Part shown: piece by piece, positions 15,067 through 37,126 of the stretch
Position numbering within the stretch: position 1 is the stretch's first letter
How the letters are laid out: each line of letters begins with the position of its first letter
Origin: Ilyonectria destructans
Lineage: Eukaryota > Ascomycota > Sordariomycetes > Hypocreales > Nectriaceae
Assembly: GCA_020740775.1 (NCBI GenBank)
Contig: JAHEWK010000002.1
Span: 4,774,001 to 4,838,000, forward strand
Reading direction: 5' to 3'
Length of the DNA stretch: 64,000 nucleotides
The notes under the pieces: model-generated
Database searches by the model: none
What the model saw: the letters and a program-made list of their open reading frames with translations, nothing else
Told to the model about the DNA's origin: nothing
Translations under genes and position numbers: made by a program

Positions 15067-16820
15067 TTCGGCGGGACTGAAACGTTGACTGAGAGAATAG
15101 TTGTGATGCTGGGCTGGAGGTCCAGACGTGGCTAGCTGTCTTTGTTGTCAACGCGCTGTTGTCCTACCAAAATGTAAACTCATGACTCTCGTTCATCGAG
15201 AAAGGCGTCATTGGATTTTGTTGACATTCCGCCGATGTCGCGTAGGTATTTCATAATTAGTCTCTCACTAGATTCGGCAATGAGTTGGTAGATGGTCTAG
15301 ACGGATTTGCCAGAGACCGTCAAAAATTATTCTTTGAGGATGCGGAGACAGAACTTGCCAACCTCAACATTGCCTATTTTTTTTTCTTTTTCGCGAAATG
15401 CTCTATAGAGGAGGCCCGGATGACTTTCCACGCTCTTTGGAGGCTTCGATTGATGCTAGTGAAGAGGGACAAGGCCTTGCAGGTGTTACAGACAAATATG
15501 TCCAGCCTTGCGGGTTCATGTGCTCACTATGGGCAAGCCAGCTGACTGCGACCTGTACTTTGTCGTGGTTTGTCAGCTTTACTTTCTCGTGTTCTCGGAG
15601 GGCAAGATTTACATTCCACAAAGGTTGTCCCGCCTGCGCTTGCGCCCAACAGTACACGGCTCAGAAGAGATTGCTCGCACGGAATCTTGGCGCTATCGTT
15701 ACGAGCTCGAGTCGAACAACAACAGCAAATTCAATCGTGCGAGCACTACCGAACCTGTCTCGCGCTCACAGAGGCAAGGTTTCCGGACCTGTCCTCGGAT
15801 TGATTGCAGATAGGATTCGGATTGGCATGAAAGGCAGCTGAGGCGTTTGCTAAAGTGGCAACTCATTGTCAGGCTAATACGTCTAGACCTGACTGCATTT
15901 TGACAGCCTTCCAAATTCTTTTCAGCGCATTTGTCCTCGTGTATCAGCCGGCGAAAGATGACCTGGGTGCTATCTCTCTACTTCCTCAAATGATCTCAAG
16001 AATGAAGAAAGAACCGGCAACGAGATGCGGGCATTGAATAATCTCACACGTAAACTACGTTTTGGTTGCGGTCAAACACATGTATCTAGCAGAGATGCTT
16101 TACGAGCGTGCAAATGGTCACCAAGGTCATGATCACAGGAACCAGGCGCTGCATACGCAAAGGGAGTTTCTCCATGCTTTCAACCTCAAATCCACCCACC
16201 GCCCCAAGTATCTGGATGCCTGGACGTGCAGATGGTTGAGAATATGTCGCGCATACATGCTTGGGAGAATCAATGGTGAGATTGGACCCGATGTTTCGTG
16301 CGAACTGTTCCCGTTTGATACTCTTTGGCCGTTGTTTAACGGGGATCATGATGAGGTCGACTCCCTTGACTTTCTGTATTCGCAAAACTATACTAATAAT
16401 ATATCCCCTTTCATATAACTGATGATATTGAGTAAAGCTAAAGAAACAACCAAATATATCCCCTTTCACTTCGCCTCGTGGACCAGAACTGAACTGCCAG
16501 CACCAGATGCGCCAAATTCCTGATACTCTAGGGCTCTAGCTTGGTGTCATCCTAGACTTTTCGGGACCGAGGGTACGTCTAGATCGGGTTTGCCCCTATT
16601 GCTAGGCAATGCACGTTCACCAAAGTTCATAAAAAGACGGGCTGGATTTAAAGCATTGGAACAGGGAGTCATGCCCATGCAGTAGCGTTTCGGTTGAGCT
16701 ACTGATGCTTCGATGTTCGAGAAGAGGGTAGTGGAATTATAACCCAAACAATTAAATTCTTTCCAAGTAACATGACATAGTCCTCTGATGACGTTCCCTA
16801 GGATTATCTTTGCTAACCCT
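15067..16820. other. Gene-poor region, no supported gene
   Basis: Overlapping frames at 15285-15914 and 16062-16469 run on both strands, give no recognisable domain, and include a run of phenylalanine codons from a T-rich tract. Bases 16547-16820 are open in the permease frame but lie beyond its spliced stop. Confidence 0.45.
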
Positions 16821-18424
16821 CTAAACTGATCTGCAGGTGAATGGTGCGTGGTCGCTACCGGTTGAGATTTGGTGATTCTGTGAATAATTAGCAATCTTGT
16901 CATCGCGCGAGCTTCACCAGTGAGGCGGCTTACAATATCGACAATGGTGGAGTATGTGCCGCCGACCAGGACTACAATTCCGATAACGAAGACAATGATG
17001 CTTCCAATGCTCATGGCGATATTCTCTCGAGCATACCACTTTCCCTTGCACAGAAAAACGAACCACATAATACCGGGGATATAGAATGAGAAACCCGAAA
17101 CGAAAAGCGCGGAACAGAGTGACAGGAGGTCGGAGAAGATGGGAATGGTCTCGGCGATGATCCATGCGATGATTGTGAAGACGGCGACAATCAAGATCCA
17201 GCTAGCCCAGCCGATAGGAGTGTTGATGTAGCGGTGAATCGAGTTCTTGTAGATTCGGCCATGGACATAGCGGAGGGCAACAGTCGAGTTGATAGAGCCC
17301 GAGATGAAGATGACAGGCAACGCAATGCCGAAGGCGATTTTCGAGATAAGATCGCCAGCAGAGAGCAGAGCCGGCGACTGAACGGTAGACCCAATAAAGG
17401 CGTAGCAGAGCGCACCAGTCAGGGTGTAGATCAAGACCTGCATCACACCGTTCGCCCAGATGGACTTCATGAAATCCTTGGGTGTGTGCATCTCATCCAT
17501 GAAGGAGAACTGCCCAATAGCAAAGCTGTAGGCGAAGACAATGTTGCTGACGGCAACAAATGCCTCGGAAAAGCTCAGATCGTCCTTGGGATAGGCAGAC
17601 CACGTAACGCCAGACAAACCGCCGGGTGAATCGCTAGCCTGAATAGCCGTTGCGATAATGGTGAGTCCAATTGCGGCAAGGATAGAAACGAAGTCGATGT
17701 AGCCAAGGATGGCAACTTCAGTGAATGAGGGAGGAATCGCAAGAATTAGAAGGATGATGGCCGAGACAGCGGAGAAGGCGATCGAACAGACATGTCCTCC
17801 GTTGATAGTGACCAGGGCAATGCTGCCAGTCAGAGCGTGCGATCCAACGACGAGAAGCAGCTCCAGAACGAAGGCAGCACCGAAAATCTCGTATCCCAAG
17901 CGGCCGAGTCCGATTTTGCCGAGCAACAAACGTCCAGCGTCTGCGTAATGCGAAATGTCGGGAAACGCCAATTTGACTTCACCGACAATGTAGCTAGTGA
18001 ATACAGCAGCCAAGCCCAGGAAAACGGTCAGAAAGACGCCGAGGATCATTCCTAACGTGTGAAAGGCACTAGGAAGACTGAGGGCACCAAGGGCGACGGC
18101 TTCCACGACCAGCACGATGGACAGACGCTTCCAGCCCAACCGGTGGAAGTGGGCGTTGCCCTCGGTAGCAATCTGCTTCATCCGGTCATCGTTCAGTTCA
18201 CTCGACTCGCCGAAGATGTTGTTGTTGTCGTCCGTGTTGTCAGGGTATGACTGCGTTGGTGTCGCGACTTTCTGAAGACCGGCTTCAGGGTCCTGTTGCT
18301 GGTTCTTAGCAACTGAGGGCGGCGCGGCGGCAATATCTTGGCCCATGTTGATATGGCAGTCCAGCAGTCGCTGAACGGAATTGGTAGAATGCGGGTGAGA
18401 AGAACGAGGAGGTGTGGGGGACAT
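16821..18424 (-). CDS. Mtr-like amino-acid/auxin permease (Aa_trans family)
   Basis: Minus-strand transporter of the amino acid/auxin permease family, close in layout to the fungal neutral amino-acid permease Mtr. About eleven hydrophobic helices follow a polar N-terminus; typical segments are LGALSLPSAFHTLG and FAYSFAIGQFSFMDEMHTPKDF. The unspliced frame runs on to 16547 with an unlikely polar tail. A 56-nt intron at 16933-16878 (donor gtaagc, branch gctaat, acceptor cacag) restores an end of NHQISTGSDHAPFTCRSV with a stop at 16821, like the FTC-type ends of the family. Exon 1 is 18424-16934. The Met at 18346 has a stronger context (AACATGG) and gives 489 residues; the Met at 18424 gives 515. 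Likely plasma-membrane proton-coupled uptake of neutral or aromatic amino acids. Confidence 0.88.
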
Positions 18425-19536
18425 GGGAACGAGACAACGGGGTCGAGGGGTATTACTTAAGAGGACAAGGACTGACTCCGGAGAGCGGAGATGGATGACA
18501 GAGCTTGATTGAAAGTCTACATAGGGCGCAAACTACATGATATCAGAGCCCACATGGTTCAAGGAGTCTGGGGTGGCAATGGGCCAGAACGTAGTTGGAA
18601 ACACGGAAGGCTCCACAAGCCGCACGCGGCAAGCAAGGTGAACCTGGAGACAGAGGCTGCGCGTGACGACAGGTACATGATATCTATTCCCTCACTAAGA
18701 GACGGGTTGCTAGGGAGTTCCGATAAGGTCAGAGCGGCTCGGCATTGGCGATAGTGAGGCGGGTTGGCTCGGGATTTCGAATCCTCTGAGTCGTACTCCG
18801 TAGAGCGGGTCAGGTTTACGACCGTCTTATCAGCAAGTGGCAAGTTAGAACGTGCAAAGATCCGCATGCGGCCAATGTTGAACGTTACAGCCCACTGAAT
18901 ACGGGTAAAATGTTGTACGTAAAAACGCGCTTCGTCGACGTAAGAGCTCGCGTTCACCGGCGTCGTTACGTCGTGGAAACTCAGCCATTGGCGAGGGCCC
19001 CTGGAAAATATGTCATAGAATGAAAAGATGGCCCCAGCCAAATTGCTGACTCCTGCTAGACCGGCCGAAGTGGAGCAGAACTTTTCTCGATCCATTCTAG
19101 AAGCTCCAACGGATCCGACGAGACCCTCTCAATCCCGTGGTAACGCCGTCAAAGTGGAGTTATCGCGGCCCACCCGAGACGGCCCTTGACCCGTTAGGTG
19201 CCGCGTCGGTAGAAGAGTTTTTCTCTCGACGACGCGACGTAGGATGCGGATCATCTCATATCTGCAGACGCCCCGGAATCTGGCCTCTTCCAATGTCCAC
19301 TACGAGATAAACGCGGGGGAAGTGGCATGGTTCAGCTTGATCCTGGAACTGATAAGCTGGGGAGAGTAGCTTCTTAACTAATGCCATCACCCAAGAATTA
19401 CTCAACCTTGACACATTGAAAGGACCCGATTTTTAACGAATTTCTGATTTTGGGGATTTACGAACACGATTTACGGCGATGTTCCAATTTTGGTCCCTGA
19501 AGATCGTGTTTTATAGCCGCTGTAACTGGGAATTAT
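18425..19536. other. Intergenic region upstream of the permease
   Basis: Promoter side of the permease and 3' flank of the next leftward gene. A 178-codon minus frame (18559-19095) shows no domain and was not accepted. No repeats noted. Confidence 0.45.
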
Positions 19537-22190
19537 TCAGGACTGGTCTTTGTCATGTTCACTTCTGTTCGTCAGGTTTGGTCGTAGCAGATTTGCGTCC
19601 CTGACTCCGCAAGCCACGGCAAAGCTGATGAACCAGACTACAATCATCAGAAGCAGTGACAAAAGCACTGTTAACAGTGGGCCGGAGACGGTAGTCGGAA
19701 CTGGAAGAACAGCGAGAATCAGGCGCTACCTCGTTGTCAGCATTATAAACAGGAGAATGATGAGGAGTCTTTGCTTTAACATACCGTCATTTCCATCACT
19801 GCAATGACTAAAAGAAGCATGATCACGGTTAATATCAACCCAACTACGGTAAGGTTATATCCACTCTCTCTGAAAAGTCTTCCAATTAGGATATGACGAA
19901 ACATCATCAGCAGACTCAACAGAGCCAGCACCATTAAGATAAGAGACAAAATGATATTTAGATGGAGAAAATCCACACGATTATGATACTACCTCGTTGT
20001 CAGCATCATTACCAGGAGAATTATTAAAGAGCATTGCCTGTAACATACCGCCAGTGATGTAGTGATTGACACAACCAGGGCCAAGCTGCTAAGGGTCAAT
20101 ACTACTTTAGGGAGGATACCCAATGGTGTGTCGGGATAGATTATTTGCTCAGTGCTTTCCCAAGAAGCACTTGTGTGTTGACGACGCATTGAGCGAACTC
20201 TCAAATGTTCGTCGGATTTTAGTATCGTTTGCACATCCATTATTCCGAGGTGGTATGGATTTGATGGAAGGACGCCATTAACCTGAGGCCCCGAAACACT
20301 CACGATCTCAGGATAAGAAGATTCGTAGGGGTTCTTGGTTTCATGGCTGGCACAGAATTCGATTCTGTGAATAGACCAGTCACAGGATTTGATATTCCGA
20401 AACAAACGCTCGGCAGTCATCATGAGAGCATATGGCTCCGTTCGAGATACTGCCATGATCATACCGCAGAGAAAGGACTTTCTGACTACCCATGAACCCG
20501 ACGTCCCGGATGCTATTCTCATCAGCTATTTCGCTTGAAAATCCCAATGGCCTCATCAAAACTCACCCAGCCGAGAGGCAAATTTGACTTTGCGCAATGA
20601 AAACACCTGCCCATGAACAGCAAGACATGTGGAGCCTGGAAGGAGTTCGCCCTTCAATTTAGGTTGAACCCCGAGTTCAATCGTTACAGGACCTTGGACG
20701 AGGTCAGCGTCCCGTTTGAATCCCGTTATGACCTGGCCCCTCTTGGTTGGTGTTGGTGATTTGATGGTGTAGGAGCTAGGCATCGCGAAGCCAGCAGCTG
20801 TTTTGAGCGGCAGCAAAGCATGATCTATGTCTTTAGAAGCGCCTCTGGAGGGTGATTGATCTGGCTGGTAATATCGCGTACCACCATAATCCGATTGAAA
20901 TGATGCTCCGAGAAAGTTCAGCGATGTGCCAGTGCTGACACTACACCATTCAGAAACAAGGAGAGGGTCTCGAAACCCAGCATAATCCAATGACATAACA
21001 TCTTGGTCCTCCATGTCGCTGTCATTATCAGATGATGTTTCTTCATCGTCTTCATCATCAACTTCAGATTCCGAGATGGTGATATCACTATCACTGACTT
21101 CTGAAGGTGGAGACTCAGACAAGGTGCTTTTGCACGGCTGAATGACGAACTGGTTCGGAACAGGCAGGTTATTCAACATGCCATGAGCTGTTGTGACTCC
21201 ATACTGAGCCGCCGTTCCATTGATTGAAATGGCACCTCCGATACGGCCAATATGATGCAAGTAGGTATCGCCAGCTCTAATAGTGGAACAACATAGGAGG
21301 CCACTAGCTGTTGTTGCATCATGTGATGGGATTTCGATGTTGATGTAAAGCGTGATGTCCTCAGCGAGCTGGATGCCATTGGTGAGGTCCAAGATGTTCA
21401 CATCCATCGTTTCCTCCACACTAGCCAATTCGGGAGAGCCTTCGTGGACTTCTAATGGTAGCTTCAGCCAAGTGATATCATTCATGGCGGCTTTGACATC
21501 CTTGCAAGCCCAACGGCTGCCACATAGAATCCATACACTAGGCACGAGGGTGATACATCGCGCATCACGAGGAGCCCTACCCGACATACGTAGTTCAAAG
21601 AAGACATTATGGTCTTTCGAAGCGACGTGAGACCGAGCTCCTCGATCGATACTCTTCCGATATATGTCCATCGTGACTTCCGTCAGGTCTGTCATGAGTC
21701 GCCCGAAATCCTTTGTGTTCCATTGTTCCATTATATCGGATGGAATTTTGGCGTCATCACCTTCAGCTAGATACACGCGAGCTCCTTTGAGGCGTTTGAA
21801 CAGCTTCACATTTGTTGGGTTTATAGGGCGTTGAGAAATGTCTTGGAAACTAGGCGCCTCTGGTATTGAGGTTGCGGTGCTGGGTCCACCGTTATTTATG
21901 ATCTGAGAAGTTCCACTGCCGATGGACGACGATGTTGATGAAATGATGGAATCGACACCAAGTTGCGCCGATCCCATGTTGCTTTCTTCCGGGCCCCGTT
22001 GGCTCGCATCTTTGAGTCTCCAAGGAGTGGCATATCTTAGATGTATCCAGCTCTGCATTCGTCGTTGTATACTTTGTTTCCAAGACATTCTTTCGAGAGG
22101 CAGGTGAGGTGGGACAATTGGAATTATCGCTGGATCGACAATGGGACAATTATCTGTGGCTTCCTCATCTCCATCTTCAGTAGAGCGCAT
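19537..22190 (-). CDS. Trypsin-fold protein with four C-terminal membrane helices (module A)
   Basis: Four exons on the minus strand, 22190-20567, 20512-20049, 19988-19785 and 19725-19537, all joins in frame, about 826 residues. After an N-terminal domain (residues about 150-290, also seen in the module B partner) comes a trypsin-like fold. The likely triad is His336 (GVTTAHGM), Asp456 (DIDHALLPL) and Ser546 (GTSGSWVV). The residue before the serine motif is Thr where family members usually have Asp (GDSGSW). A Ser/Asp/Glu-rich insert lies between His and Asp. Hydrophobic helices follow at about 674-696, 703-727, 741-764 and 781-803, suggesting membrane attachment. Introns 2 and 3 are near copies of each other. 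The gene is divergent from the helical gene at 22678. The frame extends upstream to a Met at 22328; 22190 has a better start context. No described family name is recognised beyond the peptidase fold. Confidence 0.75.
19726..20120 (-). repeat. Duplicated exon-end plus intron unit inside the module A protease gene
   Basis: Intron 2 (20048-19989, 60 nt) and intron 3 (19784-19726, 59 nt) both begin GTATGTTA, share TTCTCCTG in the middle, and end in the same 18 nt, GCTGACAACGAGGTAG with the two bases before it. The coding sequence just upstream of each encodes a hydrophobic helix of similar length with a similar Val/Thr/Leu pattern. This points to tandem duplication of an exon end together with its intron, adding membrane segments to the protein. 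Confidence 0.75.
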
Positions 22191-22677
22191 ATTAGATCGA
22201 GGCAGGATTGAACGATGAATGATGCCTCGAATAATGAAATCGCTGACGGGAAACAAAGGGAGAGGTGGAGGCGGTCCACAACTGTAAACAAAAAGAGAGG
22301 AGGAACAACGGCAGTCGCCACCTAGCATCAGATACTGGAATTGACTGTTGTCGATGAAATTTTAAAAAGAGGCGTATGTTCAGCCTCACTCATCTGAGGT
22401 GTCGTAATCATGGCGGTCAGCGGGCGGACAAATCAGACGAGGCACCCAATCATGTCAGGTCGTTGTTGATTATCTCACTTTCAAACAAGGCGTCTTACCC
22501 CGCTTAGGCATCAATAGAAACCCGACGCAGTTTTGCCTTGTGGCGCTCTTATGTGACACTAAGTTAGTTTAGAGTAAAGTGTCCGCGAACCATGGGGAAG
22601 CCCGGAATGCATAAATTGAAGGGTTGTGGCGACTTCAAACTCGCCCGGCACGCTAGTTGACAAGAACAACAAACACC
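22191..22677. promoter_or_regulatory. Bidirectional promoter of module A
   Basis: The 487-nt gap between the divergent starts at 22190 (minus) and 22678 (plus) must hold both promoters. It contains the 19-nt element at 22437-22455 that recurs in the module B promoter. If translation starts at 22328 instead, the gap is 349 nt and still contains the element. Confidence 0.65.
22437..22455 (+). promoter_or_regulatory. Shared module element, copy A
   Basis: Reads ACGAGGCACCCAATCATGT. The same 19 nt with one C-to-T change lies at 27045-27063 in the other module's promoter. It contains a CCAAT core. Around it, ATGGCG and CAGCG upstream are also shared with the other promoter, so the conserved block spans roughly 45 nt. 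Function as a regulator binding site is inferred. Confidence 0.65.
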
Positions 22678-23769
22678 ATGCAAGAAGCCCATGTTTTTCA
22701 AGCTTTACGAGGCATATGGCCTCATATTCCCGACGACGATTTCCGACAGGATATATACTCCAACTTCATGACATTTGTCCATCTACAAATGAAATTCGAC
22801 TCGACATGGCCAAAATCATCCGGTCAAATAGCCGTGACTGGACATCACATTGTGTCCTTAATATGCGAACTTGCTCAAGCGAACGATTTATTATCTTCCA
22901 AAGAACGAGCCATCGAGTCAGCGACAAGGCTGACATCTTTCGACTCGCCATCAATGGAGCCTGCTCTATCGTTTGCCTACCTGGACCTCGCATTACGCAT
23001 CATGTTCTTGTTAGATATTCGAGCAGCTCCGCAAGAAAGCTACCCTTCACCGACTTTTACTCCTGCACCATTTGTAAAATGGGAAAGTGGTTCTAGTCTT
23101 GAAGAATCTATCAAATCACACTTCTTCAGTCGACAGTCTTTCACGACAAGTACAAGTACTGGCAGGATCGACGCTACGTTATCAATACCATATTTATGCA
23201 ACACCAAGAACTTCCGAGTGTTCTGGACGTCCAATCTTGCAGACCACTTAAGCATCAACTGGAAATCGCGAATCATCAACGTTTATGAACATAAAATCGT
23301 TCTTTGGAATCATCTTCAAACTCCTAAACGAACAATCATTCCCCACACAATACTCGGGGAAGCTATAGACACCCTCAACCTTATTTTCCCTTTGGGCGAT
23401 CCTCTCACAAAATTGTTTCTGCAACAAAACGGCAAATCATTCTACGGTTTAGGCTACTGCGGCAGGCCGAGGGATTCCTGCTTAGATTTGGGGCATTTCC
23501 AACATTGGAAGCATCGAATTGCTGACTTGGTAGAGATTATGAACCAGGAACCTCGTGGTTTAAAGCAATTAGCTCTGGAAAGGAATGGGAAAAACCTCTT
23601 ACCTTTCTTGACCTTCTGGGTTGCAATTGGCGTTGCTCTCCTAGCCTTTCTCAGCATTCCCTTTGGTATTGTTTCGATGTATTACTCCAAGATGCAGTAC
23701 GAGCTAGCTCGAGATCAAGCTTGCCTAGATCCGGAGGCTCGGCAGTCTTTATCGCGGTACTGCACGTAG
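22678..23769 (+). CDS. Helical protein with C-terminal membrane segment (module A partner)
   Basis: A single exon, 363 residues from the ATG at 22678 (frame open from 22657 without an ATG). The protein is mostly helical with no known enzymatic motif. A segment reading FWTSNLADHLSINW, then INVYEHKIVLWNHL, then KRTIIP and IDTLNLIFPLGDP, aligns with the module B protein in the same order. Near the end an HWKHRIADLVEIMNQEPRGL stretch precedes a hydrophobic helix (LLPFLTFWVAIGVALLAF and on) and a short polar tail, so one C-terminal membrane span is likely. I know this arrangement as a widespread unnamed fungal family. It is divergent from the trypsin-fold gene and shares its promoter region. A role as a membrane effector or partner of the protease is inferred from context only. 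Confidence 0.78.
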   Translation: MQEAHVFQALRGIWPHIPDDDFRQDIYSNFMTFVHLQMKFDSTWPKSSGQIAVTGHHIVSLICELAQANDLLSSKERAIESATRLTSFDSPSMEPALSFAYLDLALRIMFLLDIRAAPQESYPSPTFTPAPFVKWESGSSLEESIKSHFFSRQSFTTSTSTGRIDATLSIPYLCNTKNFRVFWTSNLADHLSINWKSRIINVYEHKIVLWNHLQTPKRTIIPHTILGEAIDTLNLIFPLGDPLTKLFLQQNGKSFYGLGYCGRPRDSCLDLGHFQHWKHRIADLVEIMNQEPRGLKQLALERNGKNLLPFLTFWVAIGVALLAFLSIPFGIVSMYYSKMQYELARDQACLDPEARQSLSRYCT

Positions 23770-24908
23770 GATGAAGCCCATTAAATACTAAAATTATGTA
23801 TCACTTTTCTCGTGAATATTTATTTGGCACACCCAACTGTTGCCTATTATTTCAAGGCATTCCAAATTCACAAGTATGAACTGGCTAATTGCCACAGCCC
23901 ACACAGGGAACCCTAAATAGGGAAGAGAAGGGTCCACCGTGTCTGCAAAACCTCATGGATTGCAACTAATCCCATCGCTCAACCTCACCCTCTGGCCCTA
24001 CTAGAGCATAAACTCCAAGTCTTCCGATTAACCTATACTAACACATCTGGAGTCAATGTGATTGTTACATACATGGAGTTGATATTGGTCGACTCTCAGT
24101 GTACTTAGTTATCACTTGCGTCTCGAGGTAAGTATCCCTTAGCTTGTTAACCAGTTGTCATCGGTACGTGTTTCAGTTGACTTCTAAGTGTTACAGGTAC
24201 TGAATCATCTACAAAATCTACAATTCCGCTGTTCATGTTATTTCCCGACCCCGTATACACCCTTTTCACCCGTAGTCCTCTTTCCCATCGCGACAGCCTC
24301 ACTCGCAACCGGTCCTGGTGTCTAAAAGTCTACCATTAGCTAGTTGGGCTTCGTATTCCCTATTATAAAACATACGTTGCAGATATTATAATGACGCCTT
24401 GGTCTGATCATCGTGGATGATGTATGATGACCCGTTTGCATACTGAATAGGTCTGTTGTCAAAACTGGTTCGAAAGCCGGGTATTTTTATTTTCATGACG
24501 GAGCCCAAGTTTGATAAAAAATATGATTCAACAGACAAGACAGAAGCACAATGACGAAGATAGAAGTAATATAAATACAAATGCGCCCAGATATCGGGCT
24601 ACTATTAAACTATTAGATTGAGGCGAGGTATACGATTGGACACCGGTCATTTCAACTGCCTGCCAATGTGCAAAAGAGGCAAAGCGGGGCTGATTGGTAT
24701 GAACAGCCAGTGCAGCCTCAATATCAGACTTGGGCTAGTACTCTCAAGAGTTTATGCGAATATCTAAATGAGGCGAATTGAATGATTGGGTACGAGCTCT
24801 TGACCCAACCCTAGCATTGGACTTGCGTCATTTATGATGTCCATCCCATAAGAATAGTGATGAGCGAGCCAAAACACCAATCCACAAGCGGGTCCATCGA
24901 GATCCAAT
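23770..24908. other. Intergenic region between module A and the tRNA-Leu gene
   Basis: AT-rich, no supported gene. The 64-codon minus frame at 24386-24580 has no recognisable domain. No duplication boundary was detected by eye. Confidence 0.45.
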
Positions 24909-25010
24909 GGTGAGATGGCCGAGTTGGTTATGGCGCCAGGTTAAGGTCAACCTTAACACCTCAATTTCCTGGTGGAGCAATCCTCCTGGGTTCGAATCCC
25001 AGTCTCATCA
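24909..25010 (+). tRNA. tRNA-Leu (anticodon AAG) with a 20-nt intron
   Basis: The acceptor stem GGTGAGA pairs with TCTCATC at 25003-25009, followed by discriminator A. The anticodon stem is CCAGG/CCTGG with loop TTAAGG, giving anticodon AAG. The intron occupies 24947-24966, directly after position 37. A long variable arm (TGGAGCAATCCTCC) fits a leucine tRNA, and the T arm is CTGGG-TTCGAAT-CCCAG. A T-run terminator follows at 25011. The gene sits between the two mirror-image modules. Confidence 0.92.
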
Positions 25011-25714
25011 TTTTTTGTCATTTGGAGTGACTGCGCTGACGAATATACCGTATGTCGAGTACAATTGCACGGATGCATTGACTGTCTGTCTGTCCATTAT
25101 TAATGTCACAAATTTTGATGACGAGGCTATTTGCTTTTTACCTGTTCAACGAGACCAGGCTCAATTTCACTGCAAGATGAACATGAAGTTCGGAGGGTTC
25201 AAGTAATAGTGCACATCTCGCTCACCACACATTCACTGCAACTTCGTGTTGAGTTGCTCTTACAGTTACCACGTTGCCGCAATATAGAACGTTAGATTTA
25301 AATTAAGAAAAAGTATACTGTCCCTTTTGCTCGGTTTATGATCATCTTAACTTCAATCAACCCAGTGCTATACTAACCAAATCCCAATTCTCGGGACCCT
25401 AGACCTGTGCACCTGTATGAAGTTTGGAGCCGGTTCAGCCCGACGAGTCCCAAATCTGGTGCGGCAATTTTCCTATTCGCTGACGTGCGAGTTTTCACAA
25501 ATGCGAGGGTGAGCGTAGCCCTCATACCTAACCAGCCTGGGTGTTCATATCATTCAAAAAACAGATCCTGCGTAAAAGCGTAACGATTTGAAAGAACATT
25601 GAACAAATTCGAGTTCACTACTTGATTGTGAAAATTAAAACTGTTGAACATCCGTTTCCTGCAACCACAGCTCGTTCCAAAGTGGTGCACAGCAAATATG
25701 CCCCCTTTCGCAAT
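25011..25714. other. Intergenic region between tRNA-Leu and module B
   Basis: AT-rich, starting with the tRNA terminator T-run. No gene recognised; contains the 3' flank of the leftward helical gene. Confidence 0.5.
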
Positions 25715-26940
25715 TTAGCCAGGATGCTTCCACGCCTCATATGCGACCCAGGCTTGAAATATACCCACGGCAAGCCCAAATATACCTAATAAAACAGCTA
25801 TAATAACACCAACAAGTGTCGCCATCATCACGTGTCTCGCTTTACTTCTTTTGTCCATCCAAACTTCCAACAAGCTTCGAGGTTTGGGGTTTTCAATTTC
25901 GTCAAATAGATCCATAAGCCGAGACCCCCAAAACCAGTAGCTTGTCTCAGATTCATTCTGTCGCTGATACAATGTAGTGCCGAAGCGCAAGCAATCGGGA
26001 TCGAAAAGCTCTTTCGAGACAAGCGACCGAAGTAAGGACTGAGAATCTGAGTCTAAAGGGAAGAGGATTCGCAGAGATTGTAGAGTTTCAAGAGCCAGCT
26101 GTCGTGGTATAATTTCCCTTCAATCATAAGAGGTTTGTAACGTTCTCGAAACGCGAAGTTTACTCACCTTGATGTGCTGCCCGTTTCTGACGGCTCTTCG
26201 AGAACTGACGATCTGAGGTGTTCTCGTAACACGCTAGTGAGGTGATAAATCTCCAATATCCCCGTTTTCTGATCTAATCTCAAGTGATCTCGCAGCTCTG
26301 TTGTTCCTTGGATCTTCAGGCCAGCAATTCGTTTGAGCTTAATTGCTGATAACTCTGATTTTATGTCGATAGGCGATTCACATCCTCCATCCAAACTTGG
26401 ATGCTCCCTAAATGGAAAGGTAGATGTCGTAAAGTCAGCTGCGGATTGATCACTTCTCCAGACGCATGGTTCTCTTCCAGATTCCAAGAGACCTCCACTT
26501 TGGTTTTCGACACAGCAACTGACCATGAGGAGGACCCTCATAGCCAAGTTGAAGGCCCGGTGTTGGTCGTCTAGCGAGGGCAGCTCTCCATTTTCATTGC
26601 TTCTAATAGCGAAATGAGATGTCGACAGTTCGCTTCGAGGAGCAGATGGCCGTTCCTGCAAAAGCTCAATGATTTCAAATAAGTCTTCATGGCCTCTCAA
26701 CGCCCGTGGAGCATCAGGCATAAAGGATTCTGGGACGTATGATCCTGCGACTTCTTCGTAATATCGGAAGAATGGCCCAAGTCGCAGAAGTCGGCGCTGT
26801 GGACATTCTTGCCCTTCGCATGGCTTGGCAGTAGAGCAGGCAGTACATGATGTCCAGCCCCAGAGAATCCGACACAAGGTCTGGAATCGAGCATCATTCA
26901 CGCCATCAAGCGGACACAGAAAAGTATTCAAATCGGCCAT
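25715..26940 (-). CDS. Helical protein with C-terminal membrane segment (module B partner)
   Basis: Exons 26940-26168 and 26117-25715 join in phase 2 across a 50-nt intron (donor gtgagt, acceptor gaag), giving 391 residues. The join yields SREIIPRQLALETLQSLRIL then FPLDSD, which aligns with KRTIIP, IDTLNLIFPLGDP of the module A protein; another acceptor (after ccacgacag) breaks the frame, so this choice is well supported. Upstream, ELRDHLRLDQ and LEIYHLTSVLREHL match the A protein's ADHLSINW and INVYEHKIVLWNHL. The N-terminus has several Cys (CTACSTAKPCEGQECPQRR), absent from A. A single hydrophobic span (VMMATLVGVIIAVLLGIFGL and on) lies near the end, followed by an aromatic-rich tail. Divergent from the trypsin-fold/RfeG-like gene. 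Function unknown; the link to the protease is by context. Confidence 0.78.
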
Positions 26941-27020
26941 AACGTAAGGGAATTTAACATGGACGAAGACAACCAGATCACTTGGTTCCGTGTAATGACT
27001 TTCTCCGGTACGCCTCGCTT

Positions 27021-27035
27021 ATGGCGCAGCGCCAT
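27021..27035. repeat. Perfect inverted repeat in the module B promoter
   Basis: ATGGCGC-A-GCGCCAT, two 7-nt arms around one base. A looser outer pair, GCCTCG at 27012-27017 and CGAGGC at 27046-27051, encloses it; the outer right arm is part of the shared 19-nt element. The form suits a dimeric regulator site. The module A promoter keeps ATGGCG and CAGCG here but not the perfect symmetry. Confidence 0.6.
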
Positions 27036-27044
27036 GCTGCCAAA

Positions 27045-27063
27045 ACGAGGCATCCAATCATGT
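27045..27063 (+). promoter_or_regulatory. Shared module element, copy B
   Basis: Reads ACGAGGCATCCAATCATGT, one base different from the copy at 22437-22455. Both copies lie on the plus strand although the gene order of the modules is mirrored, so relative to the protease gene the element is reversed, which suits a site serving both directions. Confidence 0.65.
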
Positions 27064-27287
27064 AACCAACACTTCAGCAACCATCATCCATGGCATGTGA
27101 TTAGCCACAAAAATGCACATCTTGAGGCCGTGAAGAAGGCAGTGTACTCTTCTACGCTGTGACTGGTTCCAACCCCGCTCACGGTTTCAAGCCCAGCGAG
27201 GCCTTCACTGTACTGCTCGCAATCGCTTTCTGCCTCATTCTCAGCGTCGAGAAGTGGCATACAGATATGCTTTCAAGAACCAGTACT

Positions 27288-30074
27288 ATGGCCGACGTTC
27301 AAATTGAGAGAGGCCACAGTTTACCTCTCTCAAAACTCGACACTGTACCTGAGAGCTCCCCGGTAGCTGATTTGGGGCCAAGAACAGCCAAGGCCATCCA
27401 GGATCCCAACGATGAGGCAACAGTGACAATTCCGCCAGGAGCTTGCAAAGAGACACACTCGACGATCGCCACTCTTCCAAGGGCCACTCCGTTCCCATTG
27501 GAGAACGAGAAAGGCCTATTCGAGTTCAAGATGGACGTTGCCGCGACGAAACTCGCTCGGTTCAGAGAAATCGTGCCGGAAATTGAGCGGCTCCTTCTTA
27601 ACTACCTACAGTCTGCCAAACAATTCTTTAGGAGTTCTATTCCTATCAAAGCTATAGCAATCCGATACTTGGTTATTGGGAAGGACGTCTCTGATGCCAA
27701 GGACTGCCTTGTCGTTTTCTGTTCCACGGCACAGTACAAACGTATAAAGCGTTTTTTCGAGAATCACAAAGGCGCCAAAGCTTTGTGTGAGCCGCCCGAT
27801 TTGTCGGCTCCATTCTTCAGGGTCATCATCAGTCCCCGACCTCTCAATTTGACAGTTGGAGAGGAGCACAATCGGCTTCAACACAACTTGGCGGTGTCTT
27901 CAAACTCGGCGACTAAAGTATCCGACTCTGAACCTAATCGAGACAGGATCGCTAGCCCTTCGCCCATCGAAGTATATTGCTCTCCAGCTCAGCTATCTCA
28001 AGAGACATTATGCGGGGCTCCCATCCGATTTGTTAATGGATTGGGAGAGGTTCTACATGGAACCTTTGGTGGTATTATCAAGGTAGTCCAGAGTGACGGA
28101 GATTTCCAATTATATGGACTGACAGCTAGCCATGGCTTCGTGGACTGGCAACCTTCTTCCGTGTCGTCTGACTCGGGTCTTGCCACTGACGAAATGTATT
28201 TTGATGAAGAAACCCGCAGGCTTATCCAACTGGAACATTCCGACGGAATGGGAGATGAAATATGTTCCGAGGGCGAAGACAATGAGCAAGAACATCAGCG
28301 CTCCTTAATTCGCGCCGATGTTGACCGGGTATCGATTTCCGAGTGGTCATTCGTCGAGTCACAAAAGCTCGGTAACATTCTCAACCTGTTTAAAGACTAC
28401 ACTGATTGTGAGGATCAATACCTTGACTGGGCTTTGTTTACATTGGATCCTACTGTCTATCGGCCAAACCTGTTCTTCTCCGAAACTAAAACTCGGAAAT
28501 TTCAATTGACGGCTGCCTCTGGGAAATCTCTGCCAGAAACAGGATGCCACCCCGTCGTCATCATGGGACGACCCTCTCAAGGCTCCAAGTCTGGCAGTCT
28601 CTCAACCATGCCCACGAGGGTTTTACTAGCCCCAGGAAAGGGATTCGTTGATGTCTATACGTTGAGTTTAGACACTGGTTCCGGTAAGGTTGCTGTGAGC
28701 CTATCCCTAATAGAGCTAATAATTGCAGTATCAAGCGGAGACTCTGGTTCATGGGTAATCGACCCGGTAATGGCAAAGGTATATGGGCACATCATTGCGA
28801 CTGATATGCTGGGCGAGGTGTACGTGATTCCTCTTGAAAGCATCTTTGAGGACATACGACGATACTACCAGGCAAATTCCGTCCAAATATCCTCTCTCTC
28901 TGACTTTGAAACCAAACGCAAGTCCCATGGTAATCAAGCCGAACATATGACAGAGCGTTCAGATGGTACGCCTTCTCACGTCGGTGACCACGAGGGTGCT
29001 CCTGAGTCTAGCCGTGTAGATCAGGCAACTAAACCTACCTCACCAATGCCGCAACCAGTGGTCCACCCGTCTAGCTCAAACACAAGTCGCAAACGCAGTG
29101 CACCTAACCCGGGCAGCTTAGGTCTTGGTACCTTGGAGGAGAAGCAGGAGCCTACGAGCGGACGAGGGAGCCGACGAGGAAGACACAGTTACCCCATTGA
29201 TGATACCGGCCCTTGGCGTGGTGCCATACGACAGAACGAATATTTCGTGCCTCGAGATGGCATCGACCGCGAAGTCATCTCTGCTGACATCACTCGCTAC
29301 CTAGGCAATAACGCCCTAGTTCGTCCCGGTCACTATGAGGTATGATATGTTTATCATGGTGTTCTCTGTACCTTGCAGCATGTCCGCCATTCAGACGCTA
29401 CCCCAAACTTGCTCACATTAGATTCAATGGCTGATTGGTCTCTCCATAGCACCCGCAAACCGGCCAAGTCGTCCAAGGTTACTATATCACCGCCCACCGG
29501 AATCTGACAACGGTATGTTCTCTCCGCCTGCAAATGTAACTCGTTCTACGCATTTTACGTGTGTGGGCTAGTACGGTTGGACTCTAACCGCACTTCACAG
29601 GCCATGATCGAAGATCTCAAGGCAGACTCCGCACGATGGGATAGCGAGAGACGAGCGCAGACTTCGCGCAATACTACTGGAGGTATTCATGCCTCGAGAA
29701 ATGCCAGTGGTGTTCCCGCAAGACACTCATCTAACTCACCTGTAGTACAATACTGGGACTCCGAGACGCACCAGTCGCGCCAACACAATGGCCCCACCGA
29801 TGCTTCCTACCAGCAGGATCCCTATGCCCGTGACTCCGGCTTTGACGGCCCCAGATACCCAGGCGCAAACGCTCCCGGATACACTGGTCCCGCTGGCTCA
29901 GAATACCAGCCACAGGTCTATGCAGCCCCAAGTGGTGTGTATAGTAGTTACCTGCAGCCCGCCCAAACCGCCTCCAGTGCAATACAACCAGGATATCCAG
30001 CAACCACTTCTACCTTCCATCCTGCCCAGAGTTCTGTATTGGATCAAGCTTTGCGGCCTGTGAAGGACCCTTAA
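27288..30074 (+). CDS. Trypsin-fold protein fused to an RfeG-like C-terminal domain (module B)
   Basis: Exons 27288-29339, 29450-29512 and 29601-30074, both joins phase 0, about 862 residues. An N-terminal domain (IRYLVIGKDVSDAKDCLVV and on) precedes a trypsin-like fold with His282 (LTASHGF), Asp380 (YLDWALFTL) and Ser486 (SSGDSGSWVI), then VYGHIIATDMLGEVYVIPLE, as in the family. After a Ser/Pro-rich linker the last 230 residues read YFVPRDGIDREVISADITRY, VRPGHYEHPQTGQ, GYYITAHRNL and MIEDLKADSARWDSERR, then a Tyr/Pro/Gln/Ser-rich tail; this resembles fungal proteins annotated as transcription factor RfeG. The two parts share one open exon, so the fusion is seen directly, although an unrecognised gene boundary near 28950-29100 remains possible. 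The Met at 27288 has a good context; a Met at 27267 is also in frame. Divergent from the helical gene at 26940. Confidence 0.76.

Positions 30075-32724: not shown

Positions 32725-37126
<4,402 letters not shown>

Follow-up and report, generated by a model that had tools for sequence, protein, structure and literature searches.

Divergent pairs of a predicted chymotrypsin-fold protease and a helical membrane protein in Ilyonectria destructans, candidates for a fungal cell-death system

Known fungal self-destruction involves NLR–HeLo and protease–gasdermin gene clusters. We analysed a stretch of 64,000 nucleotides (the window) from the 71.7 Mb assembly of Ilyonectria destructans, in which a preliminary description had noted two pairs of a trypsin-fold protease gene and a membrane protein gene around a tRNA-Leu gene. 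It had proposed that each pair is a two-part cell-death switch of the HET-Q2/HET-Q1 kind. The locus raises the question whether the two neighbours belong together, and, if so, whether they could kill the cell.

The five elements were all found across positions 19537–30074, in the order and orientation given by the preliminary description, namely PR1 (−), TM1 (+), tRNA-Leu, TM2 (−) and PR2 (+), with each pair divergent (Table 1; open reading frames, splice models and ARAGORN). The start codons lie 487 bp apart in the first pair and 326 bp apart in the second. TM2 is identical (100% over 391 amino acids) to an annotated I. destructans protein (P0053), and PR2 probably has further exons up to about position 30074. 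The predicted introns of PR1 and PR2 match in place and phase, both lying just before the codon of the nucleophile. None of the four proteins matched a Pfam family above the cut-off. Hydropathy revealed two hydrophobic segments at the C-terminal end of PR1; a 65-bp repeat (19726–19789 versus 19989–20053, 80% identical) lies at the 3′ end of the gene, where these segments arise. A default ARAGORN run gave only a tRNA-Cys, and the tRNA-Leu(AAG) appeared when introns were allowed; we considered this gene as a functional part of the pairs, set the idea aside and propose no role for it. The flanking genes at 16547–18532 (−) and 32725–34005 (−) resemble, by eye, an amino-acid transporter and a catalase-peroxidase, and no link between them and the pairs was seen. 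The labels transporter-like, catalase-like, transposon-like and chitinase-like, here and below, were given by eye and are presumptive.

Table 1. Features of the two gene pairs, in positions of the window
Feature	Position	Strand	Basis or structure
PR1, chymotrypsin-fold protease, pair 1	19989–22190	−	ATG at 22190; open reading frames and splice model
PR1 exons (more 3′ exons possible)	22190–20567 and 20512–19989; predicted 54-nt intron 20566–20513	−	splice model
TM1, helical protein with predicted C-terminal membrane segment	22678–23769	+	single exon; homologues and own paralogues
tRNA-Leu(AAG) with 20-nt intron, between both pairs	24908–25011	+	ARAGORN with introns allowed
TM2, helical protein with predicted C-terminal membrane segment	25715–26940	−	exons 26940–26168 and 26117–25715
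PR2, N-terminal domain, chymotrypsin-fold protease and C-terminal copied segment	27267–30074	+	exons 27267–28683 and 28729 onward
Predicted 45-nt intron directly before the PR2 Ser codon	28684–28728	+	splice model
Bait-like tail of PR2	29220–30019	+	segment duplicated, introns included, from the gene at C12:4.471 Mb

The two proteases are homologous, with 16% identity, a common N-terminal domain and an alignable catalytic triad (TTAHG / DIDHAL / SGTSGSW in PR1; TASHG / YLDWAL / SGDSGSW in PR2), in agreement with what had been proposed from their motifs. The catalytic His is kept in 16 of 16 aligned rows. Among the 13 cores of this genome that have a TM neighbour, the Asp is present in 12 (it is Asn in locus L013); 8 use Ser and 5 use Cys as the nucleophile. 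The His-Asp-Ser/Cys order with G-x-S/C-G, together with a double beta-barrel in the predicted structure, places the family in the PA clan. The model of P0173, a protein 99% identical to PR2, matched rice NAL1 (NARROW LEAF 1) and other chymotrypsin-fold proteases; the alignment with NAL1 covers both domains (model residues 128–591) at 15% identity and an rmsd of 5.7, in a whole model of low confidence. NAL1 is a plant developmental protease, and we know of no membrane protein linked to it; it differs from the present family, which has an acidic insert and variable tails. Pfam scans gave no S8 or CHAT match in the PR open reading frames scanned and no NB-ARC or NACHT match in these and six PR homologues. 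In 10 of 13 proteases a Gly-His follows 15–16 residues after the nucleophile, which hints at a preference for cleavage after Glu or Gln, as in glutamyl endopeptidases and 3C proteases. The protease model at L008 ends 72 residues after the nucleophile.

TM1 and TM2 are likewise homologous (20% identity). The TM alignment shows nine invariant columns (W, F, H, L, P, E, F, L, P) in 19 rows, so that the helical proteins form one family, as the preliminary description had supposed from common motifs, rather than being unrelated in structure. A C-terminal hydrophobic segment was found in 13 of 13 TM proteins examined from this genome and in 165 of the 172 homologues listed (of 222). The AlphaFold2 model of TM2 (pLDDT 92.6) consists almost wholly of helices, 18 in number, besides 3 short strands; its helix 353–388 is the predicted C-terminal membrane helix. 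Among the Foldseek matches listed there was no known pore former and no convincing match; no gasdermin was among them either, a list which by itself leaves room for a gasdermin fold. Pfam scans of TM1, TM2 and the L010 TM protein gave no HeLo match and nothing above the cut-off. Only one of the 172 listed homologues, P0036 from Thozetella, a homologue of TM1, shows a precomputed Pfam domain; it carries ankyrin repeats after the region of the membrane segment.

We searched the genome separately with TM and PR queries, so that linkage was found independently from both sides. The TM queries gave 16 loci; the PR queries gave 17, or 18 counting a remnant at L003/L021 found on inspection. An independent PR match lies within 5 kb at 14 of the 16 TM loci, or at 15 on inspection (which adds L003), always divergent; from genome-wide matches alone, 14/16 TM and 14/17 PR loci are linked. 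TM neighbours are present at 15 of the 18 PR loci (the others are L015, L019 and L020), and the sole TM locus without PR is L014, a weak, truncated relic near transposon-like open reading frames. With random placement a TM locus would have a PR locus within 5 kb with a chance of about 0.24%, giving about 2e-35 for 14 of 16, under a null that ignores duplication of whole pairs and is broken if pairs duplicate as units. The PR remnant at L003 comes from inspection and a profile rather than from the genome-wide searches. The loci L014 and L016 are relics, and the profile E-values for L003, L014 and L016 are not independent because the profiles include members of these loci. Two candidates were dropped before counting: C67:2546778 (L017; E 0.041, two stops, no match to the PR profile) and C12:4471250 (L018), which matches only the tail of PR2 and has no protease. 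The genome thus holds 15 pairs, 12 apparently intact and 3 decayed. Four of them lie within about 433 kb of the 1.41 Mb contig C10, at 601 kb (L008), 736 kb (L002), 839 kb (L010) and 1034 kb (L007), which makes this region a local hot spot.

Divergence is matched between the two members of a pair. Over 13 pairs, the PR and TM distance matrices gave a Pearson r of 0.84 and a Spearman coefficient of 0.66, and none of 20,000 Mantel permutations reached the Pearson value. The four closest pairings are common to both trees (first window pair with L010, second with L002, L004 with L005 and L006 with L007); the latter two are sisters in both, and L008, L009, L011, L012 and L013 are set apart from the rest, while the deeper branches and the order inside this last group differ between the trees. 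Most pairs share only about 13–25% protein identity; the nearest paralogue of PR1, at L010, has 34% core identity. The preliminary description had called the window pairs mirror images, which is correct for their arrangement, but the symmetry is incidental, since the two pairs fall in two distant clades; for the same reason, and given the low PR1/PR2 and TM1/TM2 identities, we rejected a recent inverted duplication of one of them. Among 185 open reading frames from 11 loci and the window flanks we found only two cross-locus similarities. The flanks thus share almost nothing, and what is conserved is the pair rather than a larger block.

Damage also coincides. Both genes look intact at 12 of 15 loci (open models, triad present) and are damaged at 3, with no mixed locus: at L003 both are broken into fragments with stops, at L013 the triad Asp is Asn and the TM gene has an in-frame TAG, and at L016 both are truncated. 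Were damage to strike 3 of 15 genes in each family independently, the two sets would coincide completely once in 455 cases, a figure to be read knowing that damage was classified after the data were seen and that the protease damage at L013 is a single substitution. Duplication and decay of whole pairs would likewise be expected to produce both the co-variation and the shared damage. A chitinase-like open reading frame, L003 6300–7712 (+), lies between the two broken genes of that pair.

For other species we drew on 27 PR homologues, from a search that limited scoring to the 7,994 candidates with most words in common. Sixteen come from named genomes with a contig, and 4 of these match a listed TM homologue in species and in a contig of equal size (Monosporascus sp. 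MG133, Trichoderma harzianum, Clonostachys byssicola and Xylariales sp. PMI_506). Two of the four have consecutive locus tags, DL767_007299/007300 in Monosporascus sp. MG133 and Trihar35433_172/173 in T. harzianum. The other 12 gave no match to the listed TM contigs, which says little because the TM matches had been grouped at 90% identity and the listing covered 172 of 222. Neither of the two outcomes that the preliminary description had named as refuting its proposal occurred, and the expectation that the linkage has been kept despite much divergence is supported: adjacency and divergent orientation are strongly enriched, as counted in this one genome, and 4 of 16 PR homologues elsewhere are apparently linked. 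The best named TM1 homologues among those listed are from Xylariaceae, at about 50% identity, and relatives of TM2 and PR2 are found in Trichoderma, Monosporascus and Ilyonectria. This uneven distribution possibly reflects transfer.

What follows the protease differs from locus to locus. Pfam identified TPR (L004), ankyrin (L016), Gti1/Pac2 (L007), DUF7896 (L013) and transglutaminase/Rad4 domains of PNG1-like type (L012), as well as a weak PH match (L006); tails of PR homologues have EF-hand, GATA_AreA and Rad4/transglutaminase domains. Where it goes beyond the Pfam matches and the source names of its homologues, calling the L012 tail PNG1 is presumptive. Sensor-type tails occur in 7 of the 14 TM-linked PR genes that have a C-terminus; in the other seven (PR1, L002, L005, L008, L009, L010 and L011) Pfam recognised no tail domain, and by eye we take the L010 tail to contain a coiled coil. 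We searched for donor genes of four tails, and each of them proved to have a free-standing relative in the same genome. The PR2 tail is 78% identical to its donor, about 330 kb away, over 770 aligned bases, with another 66 bp at 82%, and the introns were copied too. The L012 and L007 tails are 71% and 75% identical to genes of this genome over 156 and 261 amino acids, respectively, and the L006 tail is 48–63% identical to its relative, in a fusion that depends on a predicted 51-nt intron. Each of the four tails compared thus duplicates part of another gene of the genome, as in an integrated decoy. PNG1-like tails are present on two distant protease clades, at L012 and in PR2-like Trichoderma proteins, perhaps through two separate gains or through exchange. 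Several of the tails look like sensors or baits, the bait reading being drawn from this likeness to integrated decoys; they could be substrate adaptors instead.

Two of the proteases without a TM neighbour are associated with known cell-death domains. At L015 4106–7743 (−), a canonical 50-nt intron connects the protease frame to an open reading frame in which Pfam recognised HeLo (26.2 bits against a cut-off of 23.2), so that the locus is predicted to encode one HeLo–protease fusion protein, which may be a form of the system with a single protein. The middle part of the HeLo frame is presumably kinase-like, as judged by eye; Pfam gave only HeLo. At L020 121–6187 the protease gene and a HET-domain gene (E 3e-24) are transcribed divergently, and a zinc-finger-like frame is joined to the PR-type protease frame by a predicted intron. 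It appears as if other executioners may replace the TM protein at these two loci.

We compared the pairs with described systems. According to PMC12881547 and PMC10197012, about 80% of the gasdermin genes of fungi are found in clusters with sensor proteases, and such clusters consist of a multidomain S8 or CHAT protease, often with ANK, TPR or WD40, beside a gasdermin under its control. The present pairs resemble these clusters (HET-Q1/HET-Q2), as far as they are described there, in having adjacent genes for a multidomain protease and a membrane protein and in being present several times per genome. Their parts are different: the protease is a chymotrypsin-fold Ser or Cys enzyme with its own N-terminal domain, the partner is mainly helical with a predicted C-terminal anchor, and the four tails compared copy other genes. 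The proposal of a HET-Q2/HET-Q1-like switch survives as the best reading available, given the sensor-like tails, the L015 fusion and the L020 HET gene, but without the HET-Q parts. In the HET-S/NWD2 and HELLP/PNT1 pairs, too, a putative sensor is linked to a membrane-acting executioner, and L015 adds a protease with a predicted HeLo domain; unlike them, the protease frames scanned have no NB-ARC or NACHT, and signalling would be by proteolysis. Putative integrated decoys have been reported in Sordariales NLRs (PMC12258605), and there, as in plant NLRs, a receptor-like protein holds a duplicated domain of another gene; here, in contrast, the carrier is a protease. In multicellular bacteria, trypsin-type peptidases are coupled to effectors, sometimes with membrane segments (PMC7159879); this likeness is one of description, and the domain partners differ. 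In the literature listings and passages searched, those of PMC9815663 and PMC4986451 among them, we found no description of a divergent pair of a chymotrypsin-fold protease and a helical TM protein.

Since the pairs fit the logic of gasdermin clusters and integrated decoys with other parts, we favour a sensor or bait protease with a membrane executioner. The protease would be intracellular, and its locus-specific C-terminal tail would probably act as sensor or bait; attack on the tail, or contact with non-self, may activate the enzyme, which would then cleave its helical neighbour, with its predicted C-terminal membrane anchor, as a substrate; the cut protein would likely permeabilise a membrane and kill the threatened cell. 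We judge the chances that a bait- or sensor-tailed protease activates a neighbouring executioner of cell death to be evenly balanced. The families, the divergent linkage at 15 loci, the matched divergence, the joint damage, the catalytic residues and the copied tails were read from sequence, and the protease fold, the membrane anchor, the cytosolic site, the splice models and the fusions are predictions. More tentatively, and with some doubt, the proteins might constitute a new class of fungal immune receptors, 'guard proteases', which carry baits copied from the fungus's own genes (PNG1-like, Gti1/Pac2, PH-type) or repeats (TPR, ankyrin) and cut a dedicated tail-anchored killer of a fold unmatched so far. 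On this more tentative reading, the pairs would add a third chassis for fungal cell death to NLR–HeLo and protease–gasdermin. A large unnamed family that seemingly follows one logic with these systems but is built from unrelated parts would broaden what is known of fungal immunity and offer a new candidate killer fold. The copied tails would indicate the fungal proteins that are targets of invaders, for which there are few leads so far. As the unit is two neighbouring genes, the pairs are directly testable in laboratory yeast or Neurospora.

Other explanations account for part of these observations. The pair might be a membrane-linked proteolytic signalling unit that causes no cell death, in which the helical protein serves the protease as anchor, as inhibitor or by presenting its substrate, and the tails recruit targets. 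The closest solved fold, that of NAL1, belongs to a developmental protease, one tail is a copy of a transcription-factor domain (Gti1/Pac2), and PR1 has a hydrophobic C-terminus of its own. However, the strong divergence, decayed copies and varied tails resemble conflict genes rather than housekeeping ones, and with the predicted HeLo fusion and the HET neighbour they make this explanation rather unlikely. Tight divergent linkage, decay at 3 of 15 loci and the uneven distribution of homologues would also suit a poison–antidote pair of the selfish or meiotic-drive type, the protease destroying a poisonous membrane protein. This appears improbable, as an antidote has no need of repeats or bait-like tails, and the predicted fusion of one protease with a killer-type HeLo domain suggests activation, not rescue. 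A reversal of roles, with the membrane protein as sensor and the protease as executioner digesting cell proteins, would be consistent with the large, confidently modelled helical part and its conserved columns, with the ankyrin repeats of P0036 and with the half of the proteases that have no recognised tail domain; yet in 7 of the 14 linked cases it is the protease that carries sensor-type domains, and on the membrane side only P0036 does so among the 172 listed homologues, so that we regard such a reversal as quite improbable.

The linkage itself might be passive, whole pairs spreading by duplication and the neighbours never interacting, which would yield matched distances and shared damage. 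It is very improbable that this is all, as adjacency persists down to about 13–25% protein identity while the flanks share almost nothing, and in other genera the two families share a contig (contigs being equated by size). There is hardly any chance that we have mis-described an ordinary fungal gasdermin–protease cluster, despite the shared arrangement, in which a multidomain protease gene adjoins one for a membrane protein: the protease model has a chymotrypsin fold rather than S8 or CHAT, and the TM model is nearly all helical, with a predicted C-terminal membrane helix and no convincing Pfam or Foldseek match. A mis-annotated HET-Q cluster was set aside on the same differences in protease fold and helical partner.

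Two further observations concern the composition of the unit. At L019 2919–4871 (+) the PR N-terminal domain occurs alone, at the end of a frame that is zinc-finger-like by eye and contains an exact acidic repeat, and neither a protease part nor a TM neighbour was matched there. Downstream of the protease at L008 (7162–7776, +) and at L011 (2190–2684, −) lie related unnamed open reading frames with 38% identity, which are a possible third member of the unit.
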